Made by a program: the position numbers and the translations under genes. From NCBI GenBank assembly GCA_018239675.1, contig JAFEGX010000135.1:1-64000 (forward strand): a DNA stretch of 64,000 bases, given 5' to 3'. Shown here piece by piece: positions 31,260-35,080 of the stretch (position 1 is the first letter of the stretch; each line of letters starts with the position of its first letter). This DNA is from Verrucomicrobiota bacterium. GTDB taxonomy: Bacteria > Verrucomicrobiota > Verrucomicrobiia > Opitutales > Opitutaceae. Below the pieces are notes generated by a model. The model was not told the origin of the DNA. It saw only the letters and a program-made list of their open reading frames with translations, and did no database searches.

Positions 31260-32084
31260 TCAGCCCTTGCCGGCTTCCTCGTTGCTCACCGGCTTGAAAC
31301 TGGGGCGCCCGTAGCGCTGGGTGGGCGACGTGCCGTACGGGTTGTGGCGGAACTCGTCCACGCCGCGGCACAGGTAGATCTTGAAGTTCGGGTTCACCGA
31401 CAGGTCGTTCTTCACGTTGGTGCCCGAGTACCGGATGGTAAGGCCGGCGCGCCGGCGGTTCGAAGGATTGCCGGGGGAGCCGTGGATCGCGCGGTCGTCG
31501 TGGAGCGAGCACTCGCCGGCCTTGAGGCGGAACTGCACGGACTTCGAGGCGTCGAAGTCGGAGCCGTCCTCCAGCTCGAGCGAGAGCACCGACTGGGTCT
31601 GCGACGAGCGGCGATGCTTGATGAGGCCGCCGCGGTGTGAACCCGGCAGCAGCTTCATGCCGCCGTTCTCCTCGTCAACGTCGTCAAACGCGAGCCAGAC
31701 GGTCACGGAATGATGCGGCGCCATCGGCCAGTAGTAGGCATCCTGGTGCCAGCCCACGGTGGCCAGGTTGTGCGGCTCCTTGATGAAGAAGTTGCTGGCC
31801 CAGGCGTAGAAGTTCGGCCCGAGCACGCCCTCGACGAGGTCGAGGATCCGCGGATTCATCACGATTTCGTACAGATAGGTGCTCGTCTCGTGCCACTCGC
31901 GGATGTCCTTGGAGGTCTCGCCGGGCTTCAGCAGGGCGAGGAGATTGGGCAGCTCGGCATTGATCTTCGCCATCTCCTCCCGGGAGAAAATCGGGGGGAG
32001 GCCGAGCAAGTAGCCGTTCTCGTGGTAGAACTTCTGCTGGGCGGCGGTGAGGCGATAGGGATTGGCGGCGGTGGCGGTGGACAT
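31260..32084 (-). CDS. Phytanoyl-CoA dioxygenase family protein 1
   Basis: 274-residue Fe(II)/2-oxoglutarate dioxygenase of the PhyH family. The iron triad is visible: His113 and Asp115 in WHQD and the distal His201 in DDRAIHGS; an arginine (about 210, NRRR) is placed to bind 2-oxoglutarate. Members hydroxylate small carboxylic or acyl substrates; the substrate here is unknown. The ATG at 32084 precedes the family-typical AAQQKFYHENGYL start. It diverges from an AraC regulator at 32217 across 132 bases, suggesting that the regulator controls it. Confidence 0.88.
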   Translation of the reverse strand: MSTATAANPYRLTAAQQKFYHENGYLLGLPPIFSREEMAKINAELPNLLALLKPGETSKDIREWHETSTYLYEIVMNPRILDLVEGVLGPNFYAWASNFFIKEPHNLATVGWHQDAYYWPMAPHHSVTVWLAFDDVDEENGGMKLLPGSHRGGLIKHRRSSQTQSVLSLELEDGSDFDASKSVQFRLKAGECSLHDDRAIHGSPGNPSNRRRAGLTIRYSGTNVKNDLSVNPNFKIYLCRGVDEFRHNPYGTSPTQRYGRPSFKPVSNEEAGKG

Positions 32085-32216: not shown

Positions 32217-33104
32217 ATGAGAGTCCTGCGCGACCCCCAGATCATCAGCGGCTACGTCTACGAGCACCCGGTGGACGACCTGCCGGCGCTGACCCACTGC
32301 GGGGAGGCGCTCTGCTGCCGGGGCCATCACCTCAAGCCCCACTCGCACCCGGGGTTCGAGTTCCTCTATCTGGCCCGCGGCAAGGCGTCCTGGCGCGCGG
32401 GCGGGGAGGTCACGACCCAGGCGATGGGCGATGTCTACCTCACCTATCCGCACGAGAAGCACGGCACGGGGTCGGCGGGGAATCCCGAGAACCACCACCT
32501 GTGGGTCGGGCTCAAGCTCGACCAGCTCGGGCCGAGTGCGCGCCGGCTGGCCCAGGAGCTACGGCGGCGCGAGGTGCGGACGCTGAGCAGCTGCCCGGAG
32601 GTCGAGCCCGTGCTGCGGGGCCTCGTGGCGCAGGTGATCGCGCACCACCCCGACCGCCGGGAGACGATCCTGGCGTACCTGGAGCTGTTCATCGCGCTGG
32701 TGGCGCAGCGCCTGCACGCGGGCGAGGGCCGCGCGCCGGTCCCGACCGCCCTGCCCTACTCCTTCGCGGTGCAGCGCGCGGTGGCGTACATGGAGCAGCA
32801 CCTCGACCGGCGGATTCCGCTGCGCGACCTCGCGTCGATGGCCACGGCGCGGAGCGTGCCGCACTTCTGCACGCAGTTCCGGCGCGAGGTGGGCGTGAGC
32901 CCGGCGGCGCACCATCTCCAGCTGCGGCTGGATGCGGCGCGGCTGGCGCTGCGGCAGCCGAATTTCGACGTGACCAAGGCCGCGCTGCAGCACGGCTTCA
33001 GCTCCTCGCAGCATTTCAGCACGCTGTTCCGGCGCGCGTACGGCGTGACGCCGCGCGAGTGGCGGCGGCAGCACGCCGGGACCCGGCGGCCGGCGGCGCG
33101 CTAG
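32217..33104 (+). CDS. AraC-family transcriptional regulator (PhyH-linked)
   Basis: 295 residues. N-terminal cupin-like sensor domain (about 30-120, with HLKPHSHPGFEFLYLARG) and a C-terminal double helix-turn-helix domain (about 185-290; RIPLRDLASMATARSVPHFCTQFRREVGVSP and the second ATKAALQHGFSSSQHFSTLFRRAYGVTPREWRR). A histidine-rich cupin suggests sugar or small-acid sensing. It diverges from PhyH 1 and converges with PhyH 2. Its TAG stop overlaps that of PhyH 2: both sit within CTAG at 33101-33104. The start at 32217 is the first ATG and gives the complete cupin. Confidence 0.88.
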   Translation: MRVLRDPQIISGYVYEHPVDDLPALTHCGEALCCRGHHLKPHSHPGFEFLYLARGKASWRAGGEVTTQAMGDVYLTYPHEKHGTGSAGNPENHHLWVGLKLDQLGPSARRLAQELRRREVRTLSSCPEVEPVLRGLVAQVIAHHPDRRETILAYLELFIALVAQRLHAGEGRAPVPTALPYSFAVQRAVAYMEQHLDRRIPLRDLASMATARSVPHFCTQFRREVGVSPAAHHLQLRLDAARLALRQPNFDVTKAALQHGFSSSQHFSTLFRRAYGVTPREWRRQHAGTRRPAAR

Positions 33105-34111
33105 GCGCCCGCCACGCCCTGCGGCCAGCGGCGGATCACCGAGAAATTCGGCTTCACCTTGTCGAACACCTCGCGGCGGCGGGCGTACTCGGCGTAGTCG
33201 GTGACCTGCTCCGGGTGCCGGGCGCTCGCGACCAGGAAGTCGGCCTCGGGCGGGTAGCACGCGATGTTGCCCTTGGCGTAGAACTCGTCGTCGGCCTTGC
33301 CCTCGGCGTCGATCGTCTCGGGCCAGAGGCCGACGTTGTTCGGGGCCTCGGCGGACTGGTAGCGGAGGTCGACGCTCCAGCGGATGTGGTCCGAGTAGTT
33401 CGGCGTCGAGCAATGCGGCGTCCGGTTCGTCATGAACACCACGCCGCCGCGCGGGCACGCGGCCGTGATGGCCTTGCGCGGATCGTCGGGCAGGTTCTCG
33501 TCCTTGATGACCAGGAAGCCGGCGTTGCCCCCGGTGTGGTGGGTCGCAACCGCGCCCTGATGGGTCCGCGGAAGAATCTGCATGCAGCCGTTCTCCACCG
33601 TCGCATCCACCAGCGGAATCCAGCAGGTGATGATAAGCTGCCGGTCGCACAGCGGCGTGAAGTAGCCGCTGTCCTGGTGCCAGGGCACGACGCCCCGCCC
33701 GATGTTGGGGAGCTTCGGCCGGATGCGGTAGACCGACGAGGCCACGATCTCCTCGGAGCCCAGCAGGCCGGCAACCTTCTTCAGGAGCCGCCGATGCGCG
33801 ATCACCTCGAACATCTCCGGCGCGTGAAACCCGCCGCCGCGCAGTCCCTCGAGATGGCGCATGATCGCCTCGCCGTTCTCCTTCGCGTCGCGGTAGATCG
33901 CGGCGAGCCGGTGGTCGAAATCGAGTTCCGCATGCAGGTTCGCAAGCTTCCCCGCGGCGTGGAGCTCGCGCGCCTTGCGGTCGATCTCCTTGTCCAGCTC
34001 CCGGCGGAGCGGCTCGAGGTCCGCGGGATCAAACACGTCCGGGACAATCAGGTAGCCTTCCTCGTGAAAAAAACGAATCTGCTGCGCGGTCAGCGCCTTG
34101 GGGTGGTTCAT
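33101..34111 (-). CDS. Phytanoyl-CoA dioxygenase family protein 2
   Basis: 336 residues, PhyH family. Iron ligands His145 and Asp147 in PWHQDSGYF and distal His233 in NRTPHCSTPNYSDHIRWSVD, with an arginine just after for 2-oxoglutarate. The C-terminal DLRYQSAEAPNN segment is often seen in members with broad-substrate or ectoine-hydroxylase-like folds, but no family substrate can be assigned. ATG 34111 was preferred; the frame is open to 34147. It diverges from an SDR gene across a perfect 37-base palindrome, and its stop codon overlaps the AraC stop. Confidence 0.87.
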   Translation of the reverse strand: MNHPKALTAQQIRFFHEEGYLIVPDVFDPADLEPLRRELDKEIDRKARELHAAGKLANLHAELDFDHRLAAIYRDAKENGEAIMRHLEGLRGGGFHAPEMFEVIAHRRLLKKVAGLLGSEEIVASSVYRIRPKLPNIGRGVVPWHQDSGYFTPLCDRQLIITCWIPLVDATVENGCMQILPRTHQGAVATHHTGGNAGFLVIKDENLPDDPRKAITAACPRGGVVFMTNRTPHCSTPNYSDHIRWSVDLRYQSAEAPNNVGLWPETIDAEGKADDEFYAKGNIACYPPEADFLVASARHPEQVTDYAEYARRREVFDKVKPNFSVIRRWPQGVAGA

Positions 34112-34199
34112 GAACACCACTTTCGCAGCTTCCTCCCGGGTTGGCAATGGCCCGCAGTCACCTTTGGTGGTGAATAAACACCGCAGTTGGCCCCCACCC

Positions 34200-34236
34200 C
34201 CGCCGTCGTGTCACGTAATACGTGACACGACGGCGG
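34200..34236. promoter_or_regulatory. Perfect 37-base palindrome between PhyH 2 and SDR
   Basis: Two 18-base arms (34200-34217 and 34219-34236) around a single central A, perfectly complementary. The core reads TCACGTAATACGTGA. It lies in the 147-base divergent gap, 23 bases before the SDR start and 89 bases from the PhyH start, where a dimeric repressor could control both. It is too long and symmetric to be chance. A terminator is unlikely in a divergent region. Confidence 0.75.
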
Positions 34237-34258
34237 CGCGGCGTAGGGTGGCGGGCGC

Positions 34259-35080
34259 ATGGATCGATTCGGGGGCCGGGTCGTGTGGATCACGGGGGCG
34301 TCGTCGGGCATCGGCGAGGCGCTGGCGCACGCGTTCGCCGGCGAGGGCGCGCGGGTCGTGCTGTCGAGTCGCCGGCCGGCGGAGCTGGAGCGCGTGCGGC
34401 AGGCCCTGCCGCGGGCGGCCGAGCACTGGTGCGTTCCGCTGGACCTCGCCCGCGCCCCAACCTTTCCGGGGATCGTGGCGGAGGTCCGACAACTGGCGGG
34501 CCGGATCGACATCCTGGTCAACAATGGCGGGGTGAGCCAGCGGGCGCTGGCGCTGGACGCGACGCTGGAGGTCGAGCGGGCGCTGATGGAGGTCGACTAT
34601 TTCGGGCCGGTGGCCCTGACGAAGGCCGTGCTGCCCGGCATGCTGGAGCAGCGCGCGGGGCACGTGGTGGTCATCAGCAGCGTGATGGGCTACGTCGGCA
34701 CGCCGGGCCGTTCGACCTATGCTGCGGCCAAGCACGCGCTGCACGGCTACTTTGATTCGCTCCGCGCGGAAGTCTGGCGGGAAGGCATCAAGGTCACGCT
34801 CGTCTGTCCCGGCTACGTGCTGACCCAAGTTTCCGCCAACGCGGTCGGACCCCGCGGCGAAAAGCACGGCGTGACGGATGCGACGCACGAGCGCGGGATC
34901 AGCCCCGGGCGGGTGGCCCGGGCGACGCTCGACGCGGTCGCGCGCGGCCGGGAGGAAATCGCCATCGGCGGCACCGAGCGATGGGCAATCCTCCTCAAGC
35001 GCCTGCTGCCCGGGGTGGCCGCGCGCGTGATCCGGGGGATGAAGTTCTCCGTGCACGCGGGCGAAGGCGGCGGACGGTAG
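34259..35080 (+). CDS. Short-chain dehydrogenase/reductase
   Basis: 273 residues of the classical SDR fold. Visible: the Rossmann motif GASSGIG (13-19), NNGG (NAG-type, about 86-89), the catalytic Ser about 141 and Tyr154-x3-Lys158 (SMGYVG...STYAAAKHAL). It resembles the DHRS7-type SDRs, but the substrate is unknown. The ATG at 34259 directly precedes the nucleotide-binding domain. It converges with the RhaI-type isomerase and diverges from PhyH 2. Confidence 0.9.
   Translation: MDRFGGRVVWITGASSGIGEALAHAFAGEGARVVLSSRRPAELERVRQALPRAAEHWCVPLDLARAPTFPGIVAEVRQLAGRIDILVNNGGVSQRALALDATLEVERALMEVDYFGPVALTKAVLPGMLEQRAGHVVVISSVMGYVGTPGRSTYAAAKHALHGYFDSLRAEVWREGIKVTLVCPGYVLTQVSANAVGPRGEKHGVTDATHERGISPGRVARATLDAVARGREEIAIGGTERWAILLKRLLPGVAARVIRGMKFSVHAGEGGGR

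Follow-up and report, generated by a model that had tools for sequence, protein, structure and literature searches.

A perfect palindrome beside an Opitutaceae SDR gene is probably a copy of a REP-like repeat family with a candidate HTH partner

Results

The PhyH-SDR locus and its palindrome

The window analysed here, the whole 64-kb stretch of an Opitutaceae contig, contains a divergent pair of PhyH and SDR genes, their families confirmed by Pfam, and between them, where the original prediction had placed it, an unusual palindrome (Table 1). Its 18-nt arms (34200-34217 and 34219-34236) are 100% complementary around a single central A, as had been claimed. No other perfect palindrome of the window comes near it in length, the runner-up having 9-nt arms; in 12 windows simulated with an order-2 Markov model the longest arms were 8-11, and the expected number of 18-arm palindromes per 64 kb is 9.5e-6. 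The palindrome is real and far beyond chance. Fold computation gives a 17-bp hairpin for it in single-stranded DNA (z -8.6). A scan of 34050-34320 found no sigma-70 promoter. Elsewhere in the window, an AraC gene is flanked by two PhyH-family genes, one at 31260-32084 and the other that of Table 1, and there are 17-27 PhyH-like matches per genome across the genus.

Table 1. Features of the PhyH-SDR locus, in window coordinates
Feature	Coordinates	Strand	Basis
PhyH gene (phytanoyl-CoA dioxygenase family), divergent to SDR	33101..34111	-	Pfam; best start ATG at 34111, from translation
Motif adjoining PhyH, consensus GGCAATGGCCCGCnGTCACCnTTGnTGGTAAATAATCA	34143..34182	.	12/12 genus genomes, read from spacers
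Perfect 18+1+18 palindrome, copy of dispersed REP-like family	34200..34236	.	Sequence, simulation, fold
Conserved 21-bp core GTGTCACGTAATACGTGACAC	34208..34228	.	Common to ~50 genome copies and other Opitutaceae
SDR gene	34259..35080	+	Pfam; start 22 bp past palindrome end

PhyH orthologues are present in 12/12 genus genomes, and in nine of these, our own included, SDR is the divergent neighbour. The spacer of the intact pair holds a copy of the palindrome in three of the nine (G000, G008 and, with one central change, G005) and no intact copy in the other six (G002, G004, G006, G009, G010 and G011), with a half-like remnant, judged by eye, in G010. The original prediction had named as evidence against itself any orthologous regions that lack the palindrome while expression of the pair is conserved; the sequence half of that situation is what these six spacers present. 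In G001 a palindrome lies upstream of PhyH, at a contig edge. The stretch that adjoins PhyH itself, GGCAATGGCCCGC...GGTAAATAATCA (also given as GGCAATGGCCCGCnGTCACC..GGTAAATAATCA), persists throughout the 12 genomes, even in G003 and G007, where SDR was not found as neighbour. Judged from this conservation, it appears a likelier candidate than the palindrome for a local control element. Besides the palindrome, the G005 spacer between PhyH and SDR (L269) carries an inverted pair of TTGTCA-CTCTGA-like repeats, which resemble TGTC/CGTC-type REPs.

Copies in the same genome

That the palindrome has many copies had not been reported in the original prediction; a search of its own genome (3.85 Mb in 148 contigs) returned about 50. 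The core GTGTCAC-nnAWTnn-GTGACAC recurs roughly 50 times, mostly between genes and in all gene orientations; allowing up to 3 mismatches, the 21-bp form GTGTCACGTAWTACGTGACAC is found at 39 sites, while the forward pattern of the degenerate form GTGTCACNNNWTNNGTGACAC, with 1 mismatch at most, is matched 49 times and its reversed control 0 times. Only the inner 21-25 bp are common to the window palindrome and the other copies. Because pairing at positions 11-18 from the centre is no commoner in this genome than base composition predicts, the 37-bp length is peculiar to the window copy, as are the outermost 8 bp on either arm.

Placed against codon-usage gene calls made in this analysis, 52 sites (up to 1 mismatch, fetched regions) comprise 4 genic, 13 divergent, 22 tandem and 11 convergent sites and 2 at contig ends. 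The genic share of 4/52 compares with about 85% coding sequence in the same regions. Spacers with copies (10 divergent, 11 tandem, 8 convergent) occur in proportion to spacer length (p = 0.27), and orientation tracks spacer length in two other sets as well (p = 0.25 and 0.70). Within tandem spacers, 64 sites are shifted towards the 3' end of the upstream gene (on average 0.39 of the way along the spacer, p = 0.0004), a lean that REPs are likewise described as having in the portion of PMC3733652 consulted. Sites are not concentrated at promoters, given this lean and the lack of orientation bias, and the 3'-end lean does not fit a promoter operator. Some spacers hold arrays of up to 6 copies, with no regular doublets in this genome; tandem repeat scans of four array loci found a long (180-bp) tandem unit containing copies in one of them (L049).

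These dispersion data bear heavily on the first reading, which makes the palindrome an operator private to the divergent promoter of PhyH and SDR. Its position between divergent genes and close to the SDR start would suit such a role, but the scattering of copies and the six spacers without an intact one make this the least probable of the readings we weighed. A hairpin acting at the RNA level, amplified for 3' ends either to terminate transcription or to stabilise mRNA ends, is also very doubtful. The strength of the hairpin, the 3' lean in tandem spacers and the A- and T-flanked copies in G015 and G017 are in keeping with it; against it, the window copy has no T run, no terminator was found in 34050-34320, divergent spacers hold about as many copies as their length predicts, and the sequence is strongly conserved beyond pairing. 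Rfam matched microRNA models and one sRNA alone, all far under gathering scores, as expected because any perfect hairpin gives such matches.

Spread and variants within Opitutaceae

In GTDB contigs the strict core occurs in at least 115 stretches, and all 115 listed are titled Opitutaceae, Opitutae, Opitutia, Opitutus, Cephaloticoccus or Verrucomicrobia; viral contigs gave 0 matches to the strict 21-bp pattern. The form TGTCACGYAWTRCGTGACA is present in 47 of 200 family genomes at 0-66 copies each, with gaps within genera and a control of 0 in all 200. A looser form matched in 14 of 18 chosen genomes, and genomes without the main form can carry another. TGTCAC arms are nearly constant among copies, and many genomes have a variant of their own with both arms altered in concert: TGTCACTTAATAAGTGACA in G058 (TTAATAA type, 57 sites), TGTCACTTAATAGGTGACA in G070 (TTAATAG type, 29 sites), TGTCACCYAATRGGTGACA in G020 and G066 (CYAATRG type) and TGTAAC/GTTACA in G189. 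Literature matches listed held no description of Opitutaceae palindromic repeats or of these sequences, which is not proof of absence.

Selection on the symmetry itself, as had been proposed, is borne out by covariation. Across 173 genome-site pairs, pairing exceeds expectation at positions +-3 (135 vs 72), +-10 (135 vs 67), +-11 (125 vs 71) and +-12 (81 vs 52), with no excess at +-13. The 56 distinct 21-mers have a covariation score of 0.184, whereas shuffles gave 0.075 (0/500 reached the observed score) and sliding gave no more than 0.082; since most arm columns are held constant by the search patterns, this evidence comes from the free columns only.

Some copies sit in larger structures. 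Asymmetric flanks around the core, AACGTCTCTT on one side and ACGGGAATT on the other, mark a longer element that recurs in several assemblies (L146:7179, L147:1296, L150:4481, L157:1006, L188:3744 and others). In assembly CAMAXB (L148:3826, L165:3939, L200:5866, L169:3767) the outer arms vary by copy yet remain paired, so that stems exceed the core. A 14.5-kb block is present twice in one contig of G189 (G189:C1; L426, L427) at 99.97% identity; the 12.5-kb site spacing seen in that genome is this duplicated block, and a similar spacing in G043 is unrelated.

Inverted pairs and copies within reading frames

In G070, oppositely oriented copies form pairs 42-44 bp apart with a common linker, and fold computation turns such a unit into one hairpin of about 21-23 bp. 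Pairs are also found in G017 and G058; the G017 copies form groups with distances of 46 and 55 bp. These units match the REP doublets as described in the part of PMC3116915 consulted.

Among intragenic copies, 31 fit the exact family pattern, of which 27 read CHV(I/L)RDT or close and 4 read SVTYYVTL. This frame bias arises because the other frames bring stops and the genes are open. Host genes encode UvrA, RlmN, Fmt, a methyltransferase and a helicase with DEAD_2 and Helicase_C_2 domains, which we take to be DinG-like. The RlmN copy falls within about 15 residues missing from the solved RlmN structure 6fz6. In the methyltransferase (31 sequences), one loop carries the palindrome in several genera, G058 has its own variant there, and others have none; the loci concerned are L131:3051, L195, L207, L182 and L288-L317. 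In-frame copies in the helicase gene (L215, L216, L217, L222) differ in position and number by genome. In-frame REPs, with uvrA among their hosts, are described in the available portion of PMC3733652.

A small HTH gene bracketed by palindromes

Clustering of genes near copies brought out a small HTH protein of 118-148 residues with the motif G.TLRPG..TPLWN, and tblastn over the fetched loci placed its gene in 7 genomes. Two further HTH genes were predicted from 411- and 433-bp gaps between sites and were found (G020:C15 and G051:C183). They account for the 2 of 8 non-G058 regions of that follow-up in which the gene was present; it was missing from the fetched regions G108:C12, G045:C30, G070:C84, G070:C22, G008:C9 and G066:C97. 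Of 32 G058 regions fetched, one held it. The DNA in which the gene was sought had mostly been chosen for its palindromes, and every find came from regions fetched on that account. In the own genome the gene lies at G000:C52:5696-6103 (L049:4697-5104).

In 10/10 genomes where the gene was found, its start is preceded by a palindrome at a distance of 6-70 bp. Palindromes stand on both sides in 7 of the 10 (G000, G005, G020, G051, G070, SJ16 and Prado242), some overlapping the stop codon, and upstream only in the G017, G058 and JACQWL loci examined. A screen for genes bracketed by copies picked out 11 of 1558 called genes. The HTH family makes up 5 of the 11 and no other family recurs, the remaining 6 being single genes of different kinds; the screen missed the HTH genes of G005 and G051 through start placement or scoring by the gene caller. 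Within flanks of up to 2 kb, the 10 HTH loci share no neighbours, one weak match apart (the G070 flanks are short); the gene sits at a different place in each genome.

Sites near the HTH gene are mostly of the type seen elsewhere in the same genome. The JACQWL gene is preceded by TGTCAT..ATGACA sites, and its recognition helix differs too. Such sites are rare elsewhere, with two more in other JACQWL DNA examined and 2 in 2.28 Mb of other loci. TGTCAC-type sites are also present in JACQWL, with no matching HTH gene in the loci examined.

The protein itself has no Pfam or NCBIfam model at cut-off, no match at E up to 1 in a PDB sequence-profile search with the family, and no confirmed relative in viral contigs. 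Its structure model is of modest confidence (pLDDT 77), with four confident helices in the C-terminal half. Foldseek returned nothing at E <= 0.001, and VIA-align matched it to XRE/lambda-repressor-type and other HTH proteins at middling Z of 5-7. The HTH fold class is supported by this modelling, with no family assignable. Since no catalytic domain was recognised, no known route would let the protein move DNA on its own.

Among the fold matches are autoregulated XRE/Cro-type repressors (C.Esp1396I, P22 c2, HigA2 and YdaS), which share with the protein the HTH fold class and the placing of a palindrome immediately before the start of the regulator's gene. They differ in that here there are tens of sites per genome, also within genes and in convergent spacers. 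In a regulon, the palindromes would mainly be operators of the HTH regulator selected at target genes, SDR included. In favour of this, the site before the HTH start is in the usual place of an autorepressor operator, the SDR site stands at a similar distance (22 bp upstream of the start), the arms hardly vary and the HTH is of lambda-repressor type. A regulon is nonetheless unlikely, with copies lying in convergent spacers and inside genes, tandem-spacer copies leaning away from starts, most orthologous spacers holding no copy and copy number running from 0 to 66 per genome within the family. Of the operator idea in the original prediction, binding by a dimer is plausible in the light of an HTH gene beside copies in 10 genomes, while the assignment to the PhyH/SDR promoter is not supported, given the dispersed copies and the six spacers without an intact one.

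The search for a link to RAYT and Y1 transposases

Classical REP/REPIN elements moved by a RAYT (Y1/HUH transposase), its gene missing from the assembly or too diverged, offer a further explanation. In size, in their bias towards intergenic DNA, in forming inverted pairs and in having species-specific variants, the palindromes match REPs as described in the parts of PMC3116915 and PMC3733652 consulted, and 17 of 20 palindrome-rich genomes have Y1_Tnp. Among 38 relatives, 27 have it. The count is, however, 0 in three high-copy genomes, G000 and G001 (assemblies 95% complete) and G070 (84% complete), all fragmentary. Y1 genes are plentiful in palindrome-free genomes. The 68 Y1 loci fetched, which include one gene fetched repeatedly (at least 4 repeats), yielded a single locus with a palindrome, about 1.35 kb away. 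Neither the 52 own-genome copies nor the 153 GTDB copies compared showed a GTAG/GTGG tetranucleotide tag in the composition of their flanks. A RAYT/Y1 mobiliser is weakened as a candidate by the Y1-free high-copy genomes and by Y1 genes unflanked by the palindrome, and we regard the classical system as rather improbable here, even more so than a regulon.

Discussion

The palindrome at 34200 probably belongs to a family of palindromic repeats in Opitutaceae (Verrucomicrobia) that is REP-like, largely extragenic and accompanied by a candidate HTH partner, with spread and recognition as inferred steps. Like the REP, BIME and REPIN elements that accompany RAYTs, as presented in the portions of PMC3116915, PMC2817692 and PMC6006769 consulted, the family consists of palindromes of about 20 bp, mostly extragenic and in tens of copies, with inverted pairs that form one hairpin and species-specific variants with complementary changes. 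Unlike them, it has no GTAG/GTRG tag and no RAYT beside its copies, and brackets an HTH gene instead. REPs are described in these sources as species-specific, whereas the arm core TGTCA is common to many genera here.

Another parallel is found in the CGTC-tagged REPs and Rickettsia palindromic elements (RPE), which, as far as the accessible part of PMC3733652 goes, apparently lack a dedicated transposase, form inverted dimers and have in-frame genic copies, including in repair genes, as with uvrA here. Theirs have 8-9 bp stems, 4-5 bp loops and a CCA tail (PMC3733652, in the same part); the palindrome of this study has 10-bp arms around one base and no common CGTC tag. The tag of those elements, CGTC (or TGTC/CCTC), is unpaired; CGTC does precede GTGTCAC in the window copy, but it is paired with GACG, and the own-genome copies have no tag of any kind in common. 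Also in contrast to those elements, as covered in that part of PMC3733652, a candidate partner gene was found here.

Palindrome units may spread by insertion. The HTH protein would bind the palindrome as a dimer, could repress its own gene and may help to spread or maintain the copies. The genomes compared showed no excision or insertion event. The copy at 34200 would have arrived as such a unit, and any effect it has on SDR or PhyH would be a by-product; the window palindrome is most readily regarded as an incidental member of the REP-like family. As a tentative extension, which we hold to be possible rather than likely, the family may represent minimal dispersing DNA of a new class: a unit of about 0.4 kb, consisting of a small HTH gene with its own palindromes on either side, and tens of gene-less copies dispersed over the genome, reading frames included. 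Specificity would then come from a non-catalytic, coevolving HTH protein that borrows host enzymes and takes the place of a RAYT.

A perfect palindrome in a promoter region need not be a local operator, and this locus may serve as a caution in that respect. What is new here is the RAYT-less setting together with a candidate HTH partner, a small, recurrent, repeat-bracketed gene beside the genome's own palindrome variant. Such a candidate partner gene makes the question of how RAYT-less palindromes spread testable.
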